A stretch of 64,000 nt of DNA from Pseudoruegeria sp. SK021 (GTDB lineage Bacteria; Pseudomonadota; Alphaproteobacteria; Rhodobacterales; Rhodobacteraceae): contig NZ_MTBG01000002.1 in assembly GCF_002119405.1 (NCBI RefSeq), positions 1-64,000 on the forward strand. The letters are read 5' to 3'. Shown here one piece after another: positions 4,493 to 24,222 of the stretch (positions are counted from its first letter, which is position 1; every line of letters begins with the position of its first letter). The notes below the pieces were generated by a model that had not been told where the DNA came from, made no database searches, and saw only the letters and a list, made by a program, of their open reading frames with translations. The translations under genes were made by a program, and so were the position numbers.

Positions 4493-5408
4493 ATGACAGA
4501 GGAGAAGATGAGCCCGCTTCGCGCGCGGATGATGGAAGATATGCGCATTCGCGGGATGGGCGACAAAGCGCAGAAGTCGCACTTCCGAGCGATCAAGAAT
4601 TTCACTACGTTTCTCGGTCATTCACCGGATACTGCCACACCAGAGGAACTGCGCGCCTATCAATTGCACATGACAGATAGCGGGGTGACACCTTCGACAT
4701 TCAATACCCGGATTGTCGCGCTGCGTTTATTTTTTCGGCATCACCTGCGGGCGCGAGGACATGAAGCGCTTCATGCAATTCAAGACCCAGCCCAAGAAGC
4801 TGCCAGTCGTGTTCAGTGTGTAGGAGGTGTCAGATCTGCTCATGGCGTCTCCTGGACCTGGTCAGAAGTACCGGGCGGCACTCAGCATTTCTTACGGTGC
4901 GGGTCTGCGCGCATCCGAGGTGTGCAATCTCAAGATCAGCGACATTGATAGCGACCGAATGCTGATCCATGTGGATCAGGGCAAGGGTGGCAAGGATCGC
5001 AAGGTGATGTTGTCACCGGGTCTGCTCAGCCTGTTGCAGGAGTATTGGAAGGAAGCGCGCCCGGAAGGCTGGCTGTTCCCCGGAAAGCCCAACATCAACC
5101 CGATCTCGTCGCGCCAATTGAACCGGGCCTTTACCTCGGCCAAACATATGGCGGGCATTTCCAAACCGGCAACCCTGCACACGTCGTGTCGTAGACGCGC
5201 CTTCGGCACGCTGCGCCATAGTTTCGCGACGCATCTGCTGGAGGCAAACACCGACGTGCGCGTCATCTAGGTCTTGCTGGGTCATGCAAAACTAACGACG
5301 ACAGCGCAATACACCCACGTCGCTACCAAAACGATCAAGGACACCGTCAGCCCCTTTGAGATGCTGGCTGGCCTGCAAAATCAAACCCTCAAGCGAAGTC
5401 TGGAGTAA
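4493..5408 (+). pseudogene. Tyrosine recombinase (phage-integrase family), multiply broken
   Basis: Three pieces together give a XerC/D-like recombinase of about 300 residues. The N-terminal SAM-like core-binding domain (to about 4730) is followed by a +1 shift in a T-run near 4725-4735. A TAG replaces a Glu codon at 4821-4823 just before EVSDLLMA. The catalytic domain has an Arg in GAGLRASEVCNL and LRHSFATHLLE for the HxxR box. It is interrupted by a 27-bp insert at 5184-5210 and ended by TAG at 5268-5270 in place of Gln before VLLGHAKLTTTAQYTHV, which carries the HxxH/W and nucleophile Tyr. The frame resumes to TAA at 5406-5408. It lies 12 bases ahead of an IS91-type transposase and was probably part of the same element. 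Confidence 0.85.
5184..5210. repeat. Palindromic mini-insert, type A copy 1
   Basis: Inside the recombinase frame, the expected Leu-His-Thr-Leu-Arg-His becomes Leu-His-Thr, then nine extra residues SCRRRAFGT, then Leu-Arg-His. The extra 27 bases start TCGTGTCG and end CGGCACG and are flanked by ACG on both sides, like a 3-bp target duplication. The insert is in frame and nearly self-complementary. Its reverse complement matches copy 2 at 5874-5900 in all but about two positions. Confidence 0.8.
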
Positions 5409-5420
5409 TCGGCGCGGGCC

Positions 5421-6647
5421 TTGTCCCGCCCAAAACTGGAGATTGCAGACATCTTTCGACGATATGGCCCCGCGTGGCGGCGGGCCAGTGCGGGACATGT
5501 CAGTCTGAACCAGCTCAAAGTCATGTCAGCGATTGAGGCTTGCCGAACCGAGGCGCTCGGTGGGCATGTGGCAGCGTGCCCAAAGTGCGATCACCACCAC
5601 ATCGCCTACAACAGTTGTAAGAACCGGCATTGCCCAAAATGTCAGGGACCGGCTGCACACGACTGGATGCAAGCCCGCGCCGTGGACCTGCTACCCGTCG
5701 AGTATTTCCACAAGGTCTTCACGCTACCGGCAAAGATCGCGCAGATCGCCTATTGGAACAAGAAGGCCGTCTACGGCCTCCTATTCAAGGCGTCGGCGGG
5801 AACGGTGATGACCATCGCTGCCGATCCCAAGCGTATGGGTGCGAAGGTCGGCATGACCAGCGTCTTGCATACGTCGTGCCAAAGGCGCGTCTTCGACACG
5901 ACGGGTTCAGCGATGACCCACCATCCGCACATCCACATGATCGTGCCTGGTGGCGGCCTGTCGCCGAAAGGCGCAAGGTGGGTCGCCTGTAAGCCCGGGT
6001 TCTTTCTGCATTTGCGCGTACTGTCGCGCCTATTCCGCCGCCTGTTTCTGGACGGGCTGATGGCACTGCATCGTGCCGGGGAGCTCGCCTTCTTCGGCGA
6101 TTTGGAACACCTGGCGGGGATGGATGCCTTCGCAGCATGGCTCGCCCCCTTCCACAAATCTGAATGGTTGGTGTATGCCAAGCCACCCTTCGGCAGCCCC
6201 GAGGCTGTACTCACCTATCTGAGCCGTTACACCCACCGGGTGGCGATCTCAAACCATCGCCTCGTCAGCGCCGATGCCAACACTGTCACGTTCCGCTGGA
6301 AGGATTACCGCGTCAAGAACGACAATCGTCAAAAGGTCATGCACCTCCCCACGCACGATTTCATCCGCCGCTTTCTGATCCACGTCCTGCCTGATGGCTT
6401 CCATCGCATCCGGCACTAGGGCCTTCTGGCCAGTGGCATGCGCAAGACCAACCTCGCCAAAATCCGTGCGTTTCTCTGTGTCCAGCCGCCAGATCAGGCA
6501 GATGTCGAAGATACTGAGCCAGACGACACCCCTCTCACGCTGCGCGAACCATGCCCGTGCTGTGGCAGCCCCATGCGCATCATTGAGATATTCCGACGCG
6601 GCCAGAAACCGATGTCCCGCGCGCCACCAAGGGAGCAAGCCGCATGA
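5421..6647 (+). pseudogene. IS91-family transposase, broken by stop codon and insert
   Basis: From a TTG at 5421 the frame reads LSRPKLEIADIFRRYGPAWR, then a zinc-finger region (CPKCDHHHIAYNSCKNRHCPKC). Next comes the HUH-type core (MTHHPHIHMIVPGGGLS), a C-terminal region with YAKPPFGSPEAVLTYLSRYTHRVAISN, and a final CPCCGSPMRIIE zinc motif. This is the full Y1-type IS91 layout. TAG at 6418-6420 stands where Tyr would be expected (RIRH-stop-GLLASGMRKTN). A 27-bp insert at 5874-5900 adds SCQRRVFDT between Leu-His-Thr and Gly-Ser-Ala-Met right beside the HUH motif, and a Trp codon appears altered to Thr. The element is therefore very probably inactive. Confidence 0.9.
5874..5900. repeat. Palindromic mini-insert, type A copy 2 (inverted)
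   Basis: A 27-base in-frame insert in the IS91 transposase that begins TCGTGCCAAAG and ends TTCGACACG, again with ACG at the left junction and ACG at the end. It is the reverse complement of copy 1 with about two differences. With one more base each side, the outer arms GTCGTG and CACGAC pair perfectly. The insert lies a few residues before the His-x-His catalytic motif. Confidence 0.8.
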
Positions 6648-7051: not shown

Positions 7052-7581
7052 TGACCGTCGCGGAGTAAAAGTCCGCCATTCTGATGCCCGGGGCGGAAGC
7101 TGAGGGCCGGGAGATGTATTCTGTGGAACTTTATAACTGGGTGCGCAAAGCGTGCCCTGTCGAGGGTATGAGTGCGCGCGAGGCAGCGCGTCTGTTCGGG
7201 ATTGACCGCAAGACGGTGTCGAAGATCCTGCAGCATTCGGTGCCTCCGGGGTATCAACGCAAAGAGCCACCGCTCCGCCCGAAGCTTGATCCCTTTGTGG
7301 CGGTGATCGACCAGATCCTCGAAAAGGATAAGAGCAAACTCAAGAAACAGCGGCACACTGCCAAGCGCATTCATGCGCGGCTGCGCGACGAGCATGGCTT
7401 CACGGGCGGGATTACCATCGTCACCGATTACGTGCGCGGATCGAAGCGCCGGACGCGGGAAGTGTTCGTGCCGCTCTCACATGCGCCGGGGCATGCTCAG
7501 GTTGATTTCGGCGAGACGCTGGGGGTGATTGCCGGGGTCGAGTGCAAGCTGCACTCCTTCGCGATGGTCGACATTGGGAGC

Positions 7582-7603
7582 GCCATCGGTCCGAGGCCCA
7601 TGG
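7582..7603. repeat. Palindromic mini-insert, type B copy 1
   Basis: A core of the form GCCAT-C-GGTCC-GA-GG with a closing CCCATGG sits in istA in place of about 24 expected residues between FAMV and AFAFFGGVP. Here the insert coincides with a deletion of host sequence. The CCAT/ATGG arms and the GGTCCGAGG centre match copies 2 and 3. Confidence 0.7.
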
Positions 7604-7659
7604 CGGACGCTGCATTTGCCTTCTTCGGCGGCGTTCCGTTGCAGGTCCTCTACGACAAC

Positions 7660-7698
7660 GAGACCTTGTCCGCCATTGGTCCGAGGACAATGGTCGAG
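7660..7698. repeat. Palindromic mini-insert, type B copy 2
   Basis: About 39 bases between the codons for Tyr-Asp-Asn and Thr-Ile-Ala-Val-Ala of istA. The core has perfect arms CCATTG (7673-7678) and CAATGG (7688-7693), with a nested GTCC-GA-GGAC centre. The insert shifts the frame and creates the TGA at 7699-7701. Confidence 0.8.
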
Positions 7699-7910
7699 TG
7701 ACGATCGCGGTGGCGAAGATTCTGGGCGATGGGGTCCGGTTGCGTACCCGTGTCTTTTCGGAATTGCAGTCGCATTACCTGTTCGACGACAAGTTTGGCC
7801 GACCGGGCAAGGGCAACGATAAAGGCAACGTCGAGGGTGTGATCGGCTATGGGCGGCGGAATTTCCTCGTTCCCGCGCCGCGGTTCGACAGCTTCGATGC
7901 GTTGAACGAT

Positions 7911-7950
7911 GTGATCTTGTCTGCCATCGGTCCGAGGACCATGGTCGCAT
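7911..7950. repeat. Palindromic mini-insert, type B copy 3
   Basis: About 40 bases between the istA codons for Leu-Asn-Asp and the sequence tgctggaagg. The core at 7923-7944 pairs CCAT with ATGG and GGTCC with GGACC. It shares the leader CTTGTC and the tail ATGGTCG with copy 2. The codon after the insert falls in another frame and reaches TGA at 7968-7970. Confidence 0.8.
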
Positions 7951-8180
7951 GCTGGAAGGACAGTGCCTGAAACGGCAAGACGACAGTCTTCGCGGACATT
8001 CCGAGACCGTCGGTGAGCGTCTGATGCGGGACCTGGATGCGCTGATGGGGTTACCCCATGCCTTATAATGCCTGCGATAAGGTCAGCACGCGGGCGACAT
8101 CGATCTCAATGGTCCGATATCGCAACAACGATTACTCGGTGCCGGTCGCTTATGCCCATCACGAGGTTCAGGTTCGGGGT

Positions 8181-8210
8181 ATCATGCTGAAAGCATGCCT
8201 CCGGCATGAC
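8181..8210. repeat. Palindromic mini-insert, type C
   Basis: Thirty bases within the istA segment expected to read Arg-Gly-Tyr-Val-His-Glu-Val-Val-Val-Gly. Instead the residues IMLKACLRHD are added in frame. The insert contains the hairpin CATGCC-tcc-GGCATG (8194-8208). Only one copy was found in the window. Confidence 0.7.
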
Positions 8211-8805
8211 GTCCATGAGGTTGTGGTTGGCTGCGGGACCGAGGTGATTGCCCGCCACCGCCGGTCTTACGCACGCGCCGACATGGTGTTCGACCCGATG
8301 CATTACCTGCCGTTGCTGGAGCAGAAGGTCGGTGCGCTCGATCAGGCATTCGTCGGGCGGACCTTCCACTGGAAGGTCCACGGGTCCTCCTCATCTCTGC
8401 AAGGCTGGGACCTGCCCGACGAATTCGCCACGCTGCGCCGGCTATTGGAGGCGCGGATGGGGAAGAAGGGCAAGCGTGAGTATGGTCAGGTTCTGCGTCT
8501 GCTGGAAACGTTTGACCTGATCCATCTGCACGCTGCGATCCGTCAGGCATTGGATCTTGGGGCCATCGGCTATGATGCCGTGAAGCATCTTGTCCTGTGC
8601 CGGATCGAGCGGCGTCCGCCCCGCCTTGATCTCGACATCTATCCCTATCTGCCCAGAGCACAGGTCGGGACGACGAACCCGGCCAGCTACATGAGCCTGA
8701 TGTCGGGAGAACCGGCATGAGCGACACCCCGCAGGTTCTATTGCAGCATCACCTCAAGGCGCTGCGATTGCCGACGTTCAAGAGCGAATATGACAAGCTG
8801 GCCCG

Positions 8806-8853
8806 TCCGGCGGCGTGCGCCGCCAATTTGGTGAGTTGCCTGCGGACGTACGC
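8806..8853. repeat. Palindromic mini-insert, type D copy 1
   Basis: About 48 bases inside istB after the codons for Leu-Ala-Arg. It contains the perfect hairpin GGCGGC-GTGC-GCCGCC (8809-8824), followed by a tail that includes TTGCCTGCGGACG. The expected host sequence (Cys-Ala-Ala-Glu-Gly-Lys-Asp-Pro-Val) resumes directly afterwards. Confidence 0.75.
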
Positions 8854-8915
8854 GGGGCGCAGCAGAGGGCAAAGATCCTGTGCAGTATCTGCAGCGGCTT
8901 TGCGAGTTGGAGTTG

Positions 8916-8963
8916 CCCGGCGGCGTGCGCCGCCAAATCATGACTTGCGGGCGGACGCCCGCT
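8916..8963. repeat. Palindromic mini-insert, type D copy 2
   Basis: A second copy about 110 bases downstream in the same orientation, after the codons for Cys-Glu-Leu-Glu-Leu. The same 16-base hairpin occurs at 8919-8934, with a tail containing CTTGCGGGCGGACG. The host frame resumes near Arg-Glu-Arg-Arg-Met-Val-Glu-Arg-Arg. Confidence 0.75.
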
Positions 8964-9226
8964 GGCGCGAACGCCGGATGGTCGAACGGCGGATCAAAGC
9001 GGCAAAGTTTCCGGCCACGAAAAGTCTCGACAGCTTCGACTTCAAGGCCATCCCGTCGCTCAACAAGGTCCTGACCATGGAACTTGCCCGTTGCGAACAC
9101 GCGGATCGCCGCGAAAACATTATTGCTCTGGGTCCTTCAGGAACCGGCAAGTCCCACATCGCTTTGGGCCTTGGCCTCGCGGCTTGCCAGAAGGGCCTGA
9201 AGGTCCGATTCACGACAGCCGCCGCG

Positions 9227-9269
9227 TTCGCCATTGTGCTCGAACCGATGGCGCATCAATGGCTCACTG
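9227..9269. repeat. Palindromic mini-insert, type E
   Basis: About 43 bases replace roughly two codons between Thr-Ala-Ala-Ala and His-Glu-Leu-Ile-Glu-Ala-Ala of istB. The arms GCCATTG (9230-9236) and CAATGGC (9257-9263) pair perfectly over seven bases. The insert shifts the frame and leads to TGA at 9272-9274. Confidence 0.7.
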
Positions 9270-9749
9270 CATGAGTTGATCGAAGCGGCTGATGACCGGC
9301 GGTTGCAACGGCTACAAAAGCTGATGGCAAGTCAGGACCTGTTGATCATCGATGAACTCGGCTTCGTTCCCCTGAGCAAAACCGACGCAGAGTTGCTGTT
9401 CGAAGTCATCTCGCAGCGCTATGAGCGCGGCTCGATCGTCATCACGTCTAACTTGCATTTGATGAATGGACCGAAGTCTTCGGCTCCAAACGCCTTACCG
9501 GTGCCATCTTGGATCGCTTGACCCACCATGTGCATATTTTGGAAATGAACGGCGACAGCTACCGGCTGAGACAGAGCCGAAAACTCCAGGACTGAACTCC
9601 CCAAAACAGCATTAGTGCTGGCCTACGGCCAGCGCGCTCTGGCACGCGTTAGCTATGTGGGGCGCACACGCGCCAGAGCGCCGCCGGCATCCCGAGCGTG
9701 GCCCCTTTTTTGCGCCGGTAAATGGCCCCTTTTGCCGCCGTGATTGACA

Positions 9750-10298: not shown

Positions 10299-10388
10299 TG
10301 GCGGAGAGACAGGGATTCGAACCCTGGAGACGGTCTCCCGCCTACACACTTTCCAGGCGTGCGCCTTCGACCACTCGGCCACCTCTCC
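10299..10388 (-). tRNA. tRNA-Ser(GGA)
   Basis: On the minus strand a complete class II tRNA of 90 nucleotides including an encoded CCA. The acceptor GGAGAGG pairs with TCTCTCC, the discriminator base is G, and the anticodon stem CACGC/GTGTG encloses the loop CTGGAAA with anticodon GGA. A long variable arm (GCGGGAGACCGTC region) and the T-arm GGTTCGAATCC follow. It reads UCC/UCU serine codons. It lies at the right border of the mobile-element region, a common position for island integration at tRNA-Ser genes. No second copy of its 3' end was seen to mark an attachment site. Confidence 0.95.
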
Positions 10389-18558: not shown

Positions 18559-21500
18559 TCAATAATCCGTCTCATAGGACAGGCCGATGCTGGTATTGCC
18601 ATCGTTGTCGAACCCGCCCCGCGCTGTGAAATTCTTGCGGATTTCATAGTTCAGTTGGATCTCGCTGGTGCCGTCTGATCCCACGGTCACATCCGTATAC
18701 ACTCGCTCCGAAATGTATTTCCCGGCCGTGACCGAAGTGGTGCCATCATCATCCTTTGCCACGTTCAACTGATCGACGCCCAGCGTATCGCGGATTGCGC
18801 CAAACACGCCACCACCACCGCCCGACAACGTATTGATCGCCGATGCCAGCTGGATCAACTCGACCGGGGACAAACTGGCAATCGGTTTGGCGAAGAACAA
18901 TTGCGCCAAGACTTCGTCCTGCGGCAGTTCAGGGTCCGACGACAGCGAGATTTCCGGATCGGTCACCGGTCCCTCAATGACGATATTGGCATTGATCGTC
19001 CCGTTATCGGATGACGCAACCATCCGCAGATACGGCACCAGTGACCCTTGGAACGAAATCGTGGCCTCGGTGAACTCCAAATTTTGCGACAATAGGCTCA
19101 TGCGGCCACGGATCAGTTGCAGATCACCACTTGGGACTGGCGTCACCGAGGTGCCGCGGACGGTAATCGCGCCGCCAAGTTCAGCATCCAGTCCACGTCC
19201 GCGAATGAAGATCTGGTTCGGTGCCGAGATCAGCAGGTCAAGATTGTAAACCGGCCCGCCGCCCTGCGCGCCGCCGCCGTCATCCTCTGTGACCAGCCCG
19301 GCACGCATGCGTGTCACCAAGCTGGACTTGGGTTCCCCCTTATGCTCGATATCCGGCACTGCCGATGGGCCACCGAAACTGGATGGAATCTGCACTTCGG
19401 TCCGGCCAATATCAATCCGTCCGGCAATGTCGGCACCGCCGGTCAACGGCCCATTCACCGAAATTTGCCCATTCACGGTCGTGTCATACAAGCTAGGATC
19501 CACCAGATGCAGTTGATCTAGCTTGACGTCGATTTGCGCCGGAATATCGCCGGTCAAGGTAATTGGACCGCTGACGGTAATTGTCCCGCCGGTGTTCAGA
19601 TTTGCACGAACGTCCAGATCGGCCCGAGCATTGGCGATCGCCACGCGCACGCCAAGGTTTTCCAGTGCCAATCGGGTCTCGGGGTCTGCCAATCGCCCCC
19701 CAGCCACGTTCACAGTACCCGATACGGCATCCAAGCCGGGCCGGCCATTGACCCGAAGATCAAACGTGGCGTCCCCTTGGATGGAGCGCGGCGCAAGTGC
19801 CCGGTTTGCCAGCCAAAGCGGCAAGCTCCCGGTTGCGCTTACGTCCATGGTGCCATCTGGGCGCAGAACGTCGCCCGTCGCCGCCACACGCGCGCCGCCG
19901 GGGCCATCCAAAGTCGACCGGATCGACCAGACCTGATTGCGTTCGCTGGCTGTGGCCTGCAACACCAACGGTCCCGAAATGCCCGGAACGAACAGGCCAA
20001 GATTGCGCAGGCGGCCGTTCATCACAACATCCGTCTGGCCGTTCACCAATCCGCCGGTTGTGGTCAGGGTCAGCTCGGTGCCGGTGATATCGCCGCGGTC
20101 GATGCGCAGTCCGTTTTCGTCTTTCGAGGCATCGACCACGATCCTCGTCTGGCCAGCCAATAGTTGGTCGACATCTGGCACACCGGTCGAGATGTTTTGT
20201 CCCAAGGCATCCAATTCGACATCGAAGAACCCGGTTTGCGCCGCGAAGCTTGCGGTTGCACCCGCGGTCAGCGCGCCGCCCAATTGCTGCCCGGTCAGGC
20301 CGGAAAACCGGGCCAGAGGGCCGGTGGCCAGATCAACCCGCGCCGACATTTCCATGTCTGCCGCCCCCAGTTTGGCCAGCCGCCCGTTGCCGGTCACCGA
20401 CGCATCGCCAGAGGTCAACGTCAAGCCTGTCACGTTCAGGTTGTTGGTTTCGGCGGTCCAGTCGAGGGTCGCCCCCAGATCCGCCCCATCCCGCAAGGCC
20501 CGGTTCATCGCCGCATCGGTGGCGGATGCGTTCGCAACCTGTCCGGTGATCTTCGCGGTCACATCAGAGACGCCACTTTCGCCTTCGGTTTTGCGGATTG
20601 CTCCGTCCGCGATCAGGTTGACCGTGCCGACGCGGACGCCGTCGCGGTCAAAATCCCGGGCCGAAATCACCGCTTTGAAACCGTCCGCTTGGGCGGCGTC
20701 ATAACTGAGGGTCAGGTCGGCAGCTTGCAGCCGGGCAGGTGGCCCCCCAATCGGCAAGACCACCGGCGCCCCTGTCGGGGTGCCGACGCGGCCGGTAATA
20801 TCGACCTTGCTGGGCCAAAGTTCTGGGTCCAGCATCGCCGTACCGGCCAGATTGATCGACCGCCCGTCAATGGACAGGTTGCTCAACGTCATCCCGGTCT
20901 CGTCTCGCGCGGCGGTGATGGCCATTGACACATCTCCGGCCAGCAGATCGTCGGCGCTTTCGGTGCCCACCGACAGATCGCGGGTTTGGCCGGTGAAATC
21001 GACGTCGAAATGCCCAGTATCGACGGTGTAATCTGCGGTCACATCTGCCGAGATACTGCCCCCAAGCTGTTGCCCGCTAATGGCCGAGAACCGGCCCAGA
21101 TCGCCCGCGACAGCCGCGATTTGCGCCTTGACCGCCATGGTGTCGTCGCCCTGAAGCCCGTCCACCGTCGCGTCGCCGGTCAGGGTCACATTACCCGATT
21201 TTGCCGACAGGTCAGAAATCGTCAGCTGACCGCCATTGATCCAGTTCGCCGTGGTCTTGAAACCAAGATCATCGCCGACCGCCTGATAGATTGCGGGATC
21301 GGGATGGCGAAACCCGGTCAAATCGGCGTTCAGCACTGCCGAGGCCGATGCAACCCCAAGACCCGAGGCCATCCGGGCAATGTCACCGTTCGCCGTTACA
21401 CGGGCCGCGCCCACCTCCATACCATCGCGGCTGAACCCATCCGCGGCCAGTACGGCTGTAAATGTGTCGCCGGAGGCGGCATCATAGGACAGATCAATCT

Positions 21501-24222
21501 GGCCTTGTTGCAACAGCATGACCGGTCCCGGAACAGGCAGGGAAACGGGGTCGGTGCCGCCCGAGCCAATCCGCCCGGCAAGGTCGATTTTCTCGGGCCA
21601 GTTGTCCGCTGCCAATTGGGCAGTCCCGGCGATGTCAATCGCTTGGCCTTTGAGGGAAAATTGGCTGAGGTCGGTCCCGGTGTCGGTCCGGGCGGCGGTC
21701 ACCGCCAGATCGACAGTGCCGGCCAACAGATTGGTGTCTGCCGGTTCGCCAACGGTCAGGTCGGTGGTTTTACCGGCCAGATCAATGGCGAAATGTCCGG
21801 TGGGGACATCATATTTCGCGGTCACATCTGCCGTGATTGCCCCGGCCAAGTTTTGGCCGCTGATGGCCGAGAACCGGGCAAGATCGCCTGCCGTTGCCGC
21901 CAGCTTGGCGTCGACCGCAATGGCATCGGCCTGCAAGCCGGTCACCGTCGCGCCGCCCGTCAGGGCCACATCGCCGGTCCGCGCGTCGAGATCGCTCAGC
22001 GTCAGCGCCCCATTATTGACCCAGTCCAGATCGGCACTAAGGTCTGCCGCATCGCCAACAGCCTGCGCGATCGCCGCATCGGGATGGGTGAAGTCCTGCA
22101 CCGTCGCCGTCAGGGCCGCAGTCGCGCCCGACAAGGCACCGTTCGCGCCGCTGCGGCCCAACGTGCCGTCGGCTTGAATGCGCGCGCTGGAGAACCCAAG
22201 ACCGGCGCGGCTAAAGTCTGCCGCATCGATCAGGGCGGTGAAACTGTCCCCTTTGGCCGCATCATAGGCGATGTCGATATTGGCTTGGCGGATCAAGGCC
22301 TCGGGTCCGGGGATCGGCAAGGCAAGCCGGTCATTGCCCGCGCGCCCAACCGTACCGGTCACGTTCAGTTTGCTGGGCAAACCGTCTGGCGCAATCGCCG
22401 CAACGCCTGTCAAATCCAGCGCATAGCCCTTGACGCTGAGGCTCGGAACCTCAATCCCGGTTGCGGTTCGCGCCGCCTGAAGCTTCAGGTCCAGCGCGCC
22501 TGCCAACAGGTCATTGGACGGGTCATCGCCGATGGCCAGATCCTGCGCCTGTCCGGCCAGATCCACGTCGAACGCGCCTGAGGTCACGGCATACGTCGCG
22601 GTCACATCCGCCGTGACCTGACCGCCAAGGGTCTGGCCGCTGATGGCTGAAAACCGGTCCAGATCACCGGTTTCGGCGGACACGGTCGCGGCAACCGCGA
22701 TGTCACTGTCTTGCAAGCCGGTGACCGTCGCATTGCCGCGCAGCTTCACATCGTCCGATTGCGCGATCAGATCACTGAGCTGAAGCGCGCCGCCATTGGT
22801 CCAGTCAATCTGGCTGGTCAGCTCAAAGCCGTCGCCGACCGCATCCCACAGCGCCACATCCGTATGGGAAAACCCGGTGACAGCAACCGTCAGATCACCG
22901 GTTAGGGCGTCGATCTTGCCCGGCGTCGGACGCGCCAGCGTCCCGCTAGAGGTGATCGCGGCACGGTCCAACACCAGACCATCTTCACGCATCACGCCAT
23001 CACTAATGAGCGACAGGGTGAAATCGTCGCCCGAGGCTTCGTCATAAGCCACCACCAGATCGGCCATCTGGACCGTCAGCGCCGGGCCGGGCAGGGGCAG
23101 GGTGACCGGCAAGCCGGTTTTCACCTGTCCCAAATGGGCACGAATATCGATAACGCGGGGCAGATAATCTGCGGACAGTGAAATCTGACCGTCCAGCGTC
23201 ATGCCGTTCGTGGTCAGATCCAGTTGCGAGATATCGATGCCCTCAACCGGGTCTTGAATGGCCCGCACCACAAGTTCCACCTCGTTGCCGAAGAAGTTGC
23301 GGTAATCGGGCAAGAACAGATTGGCGACATCGCCAGACAAATCCGCCGCGATGGCCCGTTGCGGGGTATTGGCGACGCTTTGGGTCTCGCTTAAGGACAC
23401 CGTGCCGGTCAACCGATCGACATTGTCCGTCGCCAGTCGAATATCGGCGGTAAAATCACTAATGGGTGCGTCGCCCGACACCGTCAGTTTCAGCGCCGGT
23501 TCATCCGGCATGCCTGACATACTGGCGATCAGGCCGCCTTGGGATTCGTCCACATCCAAAGTGACATAGAGACGGCGGCTGTCATTTTCGAACCCGGCAT
23601 TCAGGTTGATGGCTCCGGCTTTGCCATCGATCCGCAACACGGCCAGATTGATCGCGCCTTCACCGCCCGCCAAACTGGCCGAGCCATTGATCGACGCGAC
23701 CAGCGCCTGACCAACCACCGGTTCAGCCAAAGACAGCGCGCCGACCGACAGTTGTTGAACATTGACCGAAACCGGCAAACTGGGCAGGGCAAAGAGGGTG
23801 GGTTCAGCATCGGGATCGGCGGCAAGCGCCGGGGCTTCGCCGGGGGCGGGCAGTGGCTTACGTTCTACCTGCACCGAGCCGACGGTCAGGGCATCCACTT
23901 CCAAGCGACCGCGCAACAGCGCCAGGCGACGCCAATTCAGCACCACATCCCGAATCCGCAACCAAGTGCCATCGTCATCGGACACTTCGATTTCCGCGAT
24001 GCTGGCTTCGGAACTCAGCACACCGCTCAGACCAGAAATCCGCACGGTCCTGCCGGGGCCGCCCAGAGCATTCTGGATCATCCGTTCCAGAAAGCCGGCA
24101 TCGTCGTCGGCAGCCGCTTCGGTCGGTGTCGGGGTGGTCTGGGCAACGGCCTGCGGCGCGGACTGAACCATCACCCCAAAGGCCGCGATCAGGGCCAGCA
24201 AAAGAACTGAGCGGCGGGTCAA
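18559..24222 (-). CDS. tamB: Translocation and assembly module protein TamB
   Basis: A very large protein (1887 residues) of the TamB family. The N-terminal hydrophobic segment RSVLLLALIAAFGVMVQSA anchors it in the inner membrane or is a signal sequence. The middle is a long series of repeats of beta-rich segments (recurring RFSAISGQ-LGG-ADVTA and similar blocks spaced about 200 residues). The C-terminal TamB/DUF490 domain ends NIVIEGPVTDPEISLSSDPE through GLSYETDY. TamB forms a hydrophobic groove across the periplasm and works with TamA in moving lipids or inserting outer-membrane proteins. It starts with TTG at 24222 overlapping the tamA stop (TTGA), so the two are coupled. It is longer than the E. 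coli protein (1259 residues) because of extra internal repeats. Confidence 0.93.
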   Translation of the reverse strand: MTRRSVLLLALIAAFGVMVQSAPQAVAQTTPTPTEAAADDDAGFLERMIQNALGGPGRTVRISGLSGVLSSEASIAEIEVSDDDGTWLRIRDVVLNWRRLALLRGRLEVDALTVGSVQVERKPLPAPGEAPALAADPDAEPTLFALPSLPVSVNVQQLSVGALSLAEPVVGQALVASINGSASLAGGEGAINLAVLRIDGKAGAINLNAGFENDSRRLYVTLDVDESQGGLIASMSGMPDEPALKLTVSGDAPISDFTADIRLATDNVDRLTGTVSLSETQSVANTPQRAIAADLSGDVANLFLPDYRNFFGNEVELVVRAIQDPVEGIDISQLDLTTNGMTLDGQISLSADYLPRVIDIRAHLGQVKTGLPVTLPLPGPALTVQMADLVVAYDEASGDDFTLSLISDGVMREDGLVLDRAAITSSGTLARPTPGKIDALTGDLTVAVTGFSHTDVALWDAVGDGFELTSQIDWTNGGALQLSDLIAQSDDVKLRGNATVTGLQDSDIAVAATVSAETGDLDRFSAISGQTLGGQVTADVTATYAVTSGAFDVDLAGQAQDLAIGDDPSNDLLAGALDLKLQAARTATGIEVPSLSVKGYALDLTGVAAIAPDGLPSKLNVTGTVGRAGNDRLALPIPGPEALIRQANIDIAYDAAKGDSFTALIDAADFSRAGLGFSSARIQADGTLGRSGANGALSGATAALTATVQDFTHPDAAIAQAVGDAADLSADLDWVNNGALTLSDLDARTGDVALTGGATVTGLQADAIAVDAKLAATAGDLARFSAISGQNLAGAITADVTAKYDVPTGHFAIDLAGKTTDLTVGEPADTNLLAGTVDLAVTAARTDTGTDLSQFSLKGQAIDIAGTAQLAADNWPEKIDLAGRIGSGGTDPVSLPVPGPVMLLQQGQIDLSYDAASGDTFTAVLAADGFSRDGMEVGAARVTANGDIARMASGLGVASASAVLNADLTGFRHPDPAIYQAVGDDLGFKTTANWINGGQLTISDLSAKSGNVTLTGDATVDGLQGDDTMAVKAQIAAVAGDLGRFSAISGQQLGGSISADVTADYTVDTGHFDVDFTGQTRDLSVGTESADDLLAGDVSMAITAARDETGMTLSNLSIDGRSINLAGTAMLDPELWPSKVDITGRVGTPTGAPVVLPIGGPPARLQAADLTLSYDAAQADGFKAVISARDFDRDGVRVGTVNLIADGAIRKTEGESGVSDVTAKITGQVANASATDAAMNRALRDGADLGATLDWTAETNNLNVTGLTLTSGDASVTGNGRLAKLGAADMEMSARVDLATGPLARFSGLTGQQLGGALTAGATASFAAQTGFFDVELDALGQNISTGVPDVDQLLAGQTRIVVDASKDENGLRIDRGDITGTELTLTTTGGLVNGQTDVVMNGRLRNLGLFVPGISGPLVLQATASERNQVWSIRSTLDGPGGARVAATGDVLRPDGTMDVSATGSLPLWLANRALAPRSIQGDATFDLRVNGRPGLDAVSGTVNVAGGRLADPETRLALENLGVRVAIANARADLDVRANLNTGGTITVSGPITLTGDIPAQIDVKLDQLHLVDPSLYDTTVNGQISVNGPLTGGADIAGRIDIGRTEVQIPSSFGGPSAVPDIEHKGEPKSSLVTRMRAGLVTEDDGGGAQGGGPVYNLDLLISAPNQIFIRGRGLDAELGGAITVRGTSVTPVPSGDLQLIRGRMSLLSQNLEFTEATISFQGSLVPYLRMVASSDNGTINANIVIEGPVTDPEISLSSDPELPQDEVLAQLFFAKPIASLSPVELIQLASAINTLSGGGGGVFGAIRDTLGVDQLNVAKDDDGTTSVTAGKYISERVYTDVTVGSDGTSEIQLNYEIRKNFTARGGFDNDGNTSIGLSYETDY

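Follow-up and report, generated by a model that had tools for sequence, protein, structure and literature searches.

Type A, a 30-nt element with the sequence GTCRYGYYRRARRCRYGCCTYYRRCRYGAC, is probably (at roughly 70%) a mobile repeat with predicted hairpins that inserts by target replacement and is related, in compact form, to the CGTC-tagged REPs. It was absent from homologues, occurred at many unrelated sites with nearly constant ends and was not accompanied by a 3-base duplication. The target-replacement footprint, the covariation of a double hairpin and the landing in transposases are new here; since transposase genes have many intact relatives, views before and after insertion were available.

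Window copies and empty sites in homologues

Three copies of type A were found in the window, the whole 64,000-nt stretch of DNA that was analysed (Table 1). A preliminary description had taken the first two for one element in opposite orientations, following the codons Leu-His-Thr and with ACG at both junctions. This was borne out: positions 5184-5210 and the reverse complement of 5875-5901 differed at 2 of 27 positions, the sequence and coordinates were confirmed, and ACG was present at 5181-5183 and 5208-5210 (copy 1) and at 5871-5873 and 5898-5900 (copy 2). Leu-His-Thr is common to these copies only through their sites, and ACG appears at both junctions mostly because the element ends (GTCGTG...CACGAC) meet a target ending in AC. 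In copy 1 the terminal bases GCT look like host sequence; the final bases at 5208-5210 are also native, so this copy also allows the reading of a plain 27-bp gain. When up to three mismatches were allowed, a 30-nt degenerate pattern gave five matches in the window, corresponding to three places, two of them matched on both strands, and none in 100 shuffles of the window; the window copies match by construction, as the pattern was written from the copies known by then.

Table 1. Copies of type A and their host genes (window positions unless a locus is named).
Feature	Position	Strand	Remarks
Type A copy 1	5183..5212	+	in tyrosine recombinase gene; gain of 27 bp over homologues
Type A copy 2	5873..5902	-	in IS91 transposase gene; gain of 27 bp over homologues, with 3 bases of the target replaced
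Type A copy 3	8181..8210	+	in istA of IS21 element; gain of 27 bp over homologues
Tyrosine recombinase gene of IS91 module, pseudogene	4493..5408	+	Phage_integrase (Pfam)
IS91 family transposase gene	5421..6647	+	Y2_Tnp, Zn_Tnp_IS91 (Pfam)
istA of IS21 element	7084..8720	+	Mu-transpos_C_2 (Pfam); other inserts also break istA
istB, same IS21 element as istA	8717..9595	+	holds other palindromic inserts
Same-site istB copies	L041:1501-1530, L034:3851-3880, L115, L228, L094, L030, L031		
Hyphomicrobium MAG composite copies	L121:1302-1331, L144:527-556, L144:2863-2892, L145:213-242		

Alignment with nine homologous IS91 modules revealed that both inserts were absent from all of them, the window being 27 bp longer at each site. 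These homologues were eight plasmid modules, from Dinoroseobacter (2), Roseivivax, Paracoccus (2), Leisingera, Qingshengfaniella and Sulfitobacter, and one module of the same genus (L036, genome G003); the IS91 gene of the latter had its own type A copy, about 240 bp farther upstream, at a position that was empty in the window and in the eight plasmid modules. The same site was filled by the insert in another IS91 copy from the window's genome, on contig C46 (85% over 155 bp). The istA copy was absent from three IS21 homologues. In Alloyangia pacifica, an annotated and open 527-aa IS66 transposase contains type A, and a stretch of 701 bp around it was 27 bp longer than in four relatives (86.6-87.0% identity).

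The hosts of copies 1 and 2 are pseudogenes: the recombinase gene is disrupted by an additional base near 4727 and by TAG codons at 4821-4823 and 5268-5270, and the IS91 transposase gene is shortened by TAG at 6417-6419. The length of nine codons, previously described as leaving the frame open, follows from 30 nt in and 3 nt out. The frame does stay open at copies 1 and 2, which is no sign of selection, since both hosts carry other stops and the recombinase gene also a frameshift.

Other repeats were seen in the same IS21 element. A second one, about TTGTCYGCCATYGGTCCGAGGACMATGGTCG, lies in istA at 7666-7696 and 7917-7947, the latter copy accompanying a 38-bp gain over homologues; it gave 10 matches among the collected loci, some of which are one place collected twice. 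A third is formed by istB inserts of 46 bp (8807-8852) and 44 bp (8922-8965), which have CCGGCGGCGTGCGCCGCCAA in common and are absent from three homologues. Further inserts of 42 bp (8347-8388) and 37 bp (9233-9269) were detected, and therefore this element carries several kinds of insert. Another transposase-like gene of the window's genome (locus L030) has short palindromes at 1344-1368, 1607-1629 and 2209-2229 that look like inserts. Elsewhere in the window, a tRNA-Ser (gga) gene is located at 10299-10388 on the minus strand, where the listed ORFs are probably spurious, and four direct repeats spaced by 780-783 bp at 20252-22668 perhaps belong to a large gene for a repetitive protein.

Covariation of two overlapping hairpins

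Covariation was analysed in an alignment of 105 copies, with three further eligible rows (one from L106, two from L176) left out on no test-based ground. In the left hairpin, columns 3-8 pair with columns 12-17 (98.3% paired), with 130 doubly changed cells compared to a shuffled mean of 51; in the right hairpin, columns 14-19 pair with 23-28 (95.9% paired), with 81 such cells compared to 37. None of 500 shuffles reached these counts, nor the covariation scores of either hairpin, and a mutual-information scan of 110 sequences ranked the same pairs at the top. Two of the five covariation measures, the pairs with a double change and the further pair types, were not above the shuffles (of the 500 shuffles, 160 and 241 reached the left-hairpin values, and 436 and all 500 the right-hairpin values), because the columns permit few pair types. 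A single long hairpin, the first model considered, was rejected, as it had 6 doubly changed cells compared to 43 in the shuffles, all 500 of which had at least as many.

Kinship among the copies inflates the covariation counts, but the slid and long-hairpin controls were run on the same set of copies. Covariation thus speaks for two overlapping hairpins, each with a 3-nt loop, and against one long hairpin, and from the two pairings it follows that the middle strand is able to pair with either side. The triloops are columns 9-11, mostly G-purine-A, and columns 20-22, T-pyrimidine-pyrimidine. Folding of single copies gave mixed results, some favouring the long hairpin and one the two-hairpin form. 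The ends are GTC on one side and GAC on the other, each column being at least 90% conserved in the 105 copies; C precedes G1 T2 C3 in 131 of 179 copies, although comparison with empty relatives, where these exist, often assigns this C to the host sequence; C3 and G17 are able to pair.

Distribution, hosts and insertion footprint

Three of seven genomes of the window's genus matched the type A pattern, at 12 (the window's own genome), 5 and 1 places, and two more degenerate copies were present in the collected stretches of contigs C46 and C17. All 18 pattern matches in the genus were placed in transposase or recombinase genes (IS91, recombinase, istA, istB, IS110) by homology, empty-site alignment or Pfam, the weakest assignment being C17:8665 (35 aa, 40% to istA). 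Family-wide, 65 of 394 genomes matched, with no matches for a reversed control pattern. In a phylum-wide draw the 10 matching genomes of 369 all belonged to the same family, of which 24 had been drawn, and none was found among the other 345. A scan of named genomes gave at least 118 type A loci, and viral contigs gave 5. Among the matches listed, 80 titles presumably represent mostly Rhodobacterales, with Roseomonas and relatives, Hyphomicrobium-type bacteria, Devosia and one Enemella.

The collected set consisted of 192 copies in 161 loci, reduced to 179 with different flanks after repeated or short flanks were dropped. Several intergenic copies ride in larger repeats, some of which occur several times per genome, so copy counts overstate independent insertions. 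Outside the window's genus most copies seem to be intergenic. A list of 51 in-gene copies was compiled manually, using homology, codon score and alignments to empty sites, with Pfam checked for part of it; the codon score alone called 24 of the 179 in-gene. Hosts were genes of IS91, IS21, IS110, IS66 and other DDE transposases, and copies also lay outside genes. Of 30 stretches searched with Pfam, 25 matched a family and 5 had no match; 21 of the 25 were transposase or recombinase families, two of them below the curated cut-off, and the other four were UvrC, a sub-cut-off HHH_6, hydantoinase and a helix-turn-helix on an istA piece. In a Hyphomicrobium MAG, composite palindromes holding type A were read in frame within uvrC (UvrC_RNaseH_dom) and other genes, among them a polymerase-like gene (two sites; identified by eye and a sub-cut-off HHH_6) and a hydantoinase-like gene.

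To define the footprint, the flanks of each copy were joined and aligned to relatives. An empty relative was available for 43 of the 51 in-gene copies; among these, the target loss was 3 nt in 18, 5 in 14, 6 in 6, 4 in 2, 2 in 2 and 7 in 1, sizes that rest on best relatives of 66-89% identity. The 50 of 128 copies outside genes with an empty relative, for which the alignment was poorer, spread from -4 to 7: 5 (10 copies), 3 (9), 4 (8), 2 (7), -1 (5), 6 (5), 0 (2), 7 (2), 1 (1) and -4 (1). These counts exclude the 86 of 179 copies (8 in-gene, 78 other) that lack a usable empty relative.

The target preference proposed for the window copies was recovered in a weak form. In-gene copies had C at -1 in 39 of 51, G at +1 in 41 and both in 35 (background 0.33), and the other 128 had upstream C in 92, downstream G in 89 and both in 71 (background 0.40 and 0.41). 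Complementary flanking arms with a stem score of at least 6 were found in 20% of the copies outside genes, compared to 8.5% of shuffled flanks and 1.3% of random positions; they were not enriched at in-gene copies (2%, compared to 1.1% and 0.9%).

One site was shared by several elements. Just past the motif GGPGTGKSHVA of the IS21 istB, type A was present at the identical base, with the identical 5 bases gone, in 7 of 34 copies, the other 27 being empty. The istB tree requires three changes and a single origin was not rejected (AU p 0.10); this site may therefore reflect one old insertion or recurrent ones. The 5-base loss shifts the frame, and the downstream differences among insert-bearing copies are mainly at third positions: between L115 and L228, differences at positions 1, 2 and 3 were 3, 2 and 18 downstream, compared to 7, 7 and 6 upstream. 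The istA genes of two of the insert-bearing elements are broken into pieces. This leaves two readings, a recurrent and recent insertion or a downstream part that is still produced.

Possible routes of insertion and comparison with known repeats

Type A would consist of two small triloop hairpins placed face to face with the central strand in common and, being gene-free, would have to be copied in trans. In genes, it was seen to replace 3 or 5 target bases (range 2-7), usually between C and G. We infer that a single strand in its folded form, or a copy synthesised on such a strand, could be joined in at two cuts separated by a few bases, and that these bases would be lost, as if the new hairpin replaced a tiny loop. 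In the dead IS91, recombinase and IS21 genes of the window such an insertion would be neutral, and the frame would have been kept by chance, with 30 nt in and 3 out. It is a tentative extension that palindromes of this class spread by such a loop-for-hairpin exchange, in which a folded strand replaces 3 or 5 bases between nicks, without duplication and at recurrent sites. If true, this would be an insertion reaction unlike that of IS, RAYT or retroelements, and would explain how CGTC-type repeats, which lack their own transposase, are mobilised.

Two candidate helpers were set aside as associates by genome co-occurrence. Y1_Tnp was present in 38 of the 394 genomes and in 9 of the 65 with type A (expected 6.3), without association (Fisher p 0.25); Ku, considered for end joining, was not associated either (Fisher p 1.0). 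The window's own genome has no match to a Y1 transposase and no Ku. Rfam gave only 5 matches, all below the gathering scores, and six 15-base core words of type A had no match in the literature searched.

A route without an enzyme of its own is possible, if doubtful: replication would stall at a short hairpin, and the growing strand would switch template to an existing palindrome copy and return, swapping a loop for a hairpin. The absence of a 3-base duplication, the small and variable loss, the arm-loop-arm-loop-arm layout, the copies within other palindromes and the lack of an associated Y1 or Ku gene are all consistent with it. Such switching could itself yield covariation, with one arm corrected from another, and arm-by-arm correction of this mutational kind would look the same as selection in the covariation data. 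Against it, the 30-nt length and the ends are nearly constant across genera, a constancy that the search pattern favours, and no stem was found at the targets of in-gene copies (mean 2.33 compared to 2.38 in shuffled flanks). A conventional tiny transposon of 24-27 bp that duplicates ACG, the reading first offered for the window, is very improbable. ACG does stand at both junctions of copies 1 and 2, and copy 1 alone can be taken for a plain gain, but flanking 3-mer direct repeats were at chance level (4 of 179 copies compared to a shuffled mean of 5.5), and copy 2, copy 3 and other sites have lost bases, commonly 3 or 5, relative to homologues. Repeats of 4 bases were slightly above the shuffles (7 compared to 3.6) and those of 5 bases were not in excess (0 compared to 0.8) in the same 179 copies.

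Retention of the insert for some benefit of its peptide or hairpin to a transposase appears improbable. The open IS66 frame with its 27 extra bp and the mostly third-position differences downstream in the insert-bearing istB copies would fit; nevertheless, the window hosts are pseudogenes, both orientations occur in genes (29 and 22, by codon score), and the expected length in multiples of three failed as a rule: net length modulo 3 was 0 in 24 of 43 in-gene copies, 1 in 16 and 2 in 3, so that the frame was kept in 24 and shifted in 19. That type A is an old sequence shared by transposases and lost from the homologues is the least probable of these explanations, as nine of nine homologues were empty at each of two window sites and the element occurs in so many transposase families and outside genes, even though the C46 IS91 copy has the same site and the istB site is common to seven copies.

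With insertion by target replacement as the preferred reading, the footprint (replacement of 3 or 5 bases between C and G borders, without a 3-base duplication) becomes a testable rule and a clue to repeat movement, and the double-hairpin model can be used as a search query in other genomes. For annotators, net gains of 25 or 27 bp in transposases can be repeats and not domains.

Among known repeats, the SDR elements of cyanobacteria, reportedly described by Elhai in 2008, are said to be dispersed hairpins of 21-27 nt with compensatory changes, nested in other repeats and regarded as mobile, in sequence families of Nostoc and relatives. They belong to another phylum than type A. Elhai's paper is cited in PMC3116915. 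Rickettsia palindromic elements also lie within protein genes, often in frame (PMC10969869, PMC3733652), although they are about 150 bp long (PMC10969869), whereas type A has 30 bp and its in-gene copies are mostly in transposases. REPINs and the GTAG REPs moved by RAYT are likewise short palindromes, often paired and dispersed in the genome, as described in PMC3116915 and PMC3733652; type A has neither the GTAG tag nor an association with Y1 transposases.

The closest published class found was that of the CGTC-tagged REPs, small palindromes mainly of Alphaproteobacteria that spread without a dedicated transposase, in a way left open by the available portion of their description (Di Nocera et al. 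2013, PMC3733652). Alike are the GTC end, often preceded by a C that in type A may be host sequence, the alphaproteobacterial host range, the head-to-head layout, the copies in genes, including repair genes, and in palindromes, and the lack of a known transposase, which for type A refers to Y1_Tnp only. The same portion of that paper gives no transposase-gene targets, target base loss or paired covariation, and reports no CGTC-tagged REPs in Acetobacteraceae, where type A is present (L095). According to it, their stems have 8-9 bp and their loops 4-5 nt, with A and T at the first two stem positions, a 3-nt tail that is mostly CCA, and a predominance of head-to-head dimers (PMC3733652). In type A, by covariation, the stems have 6 bp and the loops 3 nt; AT occupies columns 4-5 in 26 of 110 distinct copies, counted over the combinations listed, with GT, AC or GC in the others; columns 18-20 are CC and mostly T and form part of the other hairpin; and the two units overlap, fused through one common strand. 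Because stem length, loop length, the AT rule and the tail differ, type A was not filed as a CGTC-tagged REP; it is regarded as a related variant of this class rather than a proven member.
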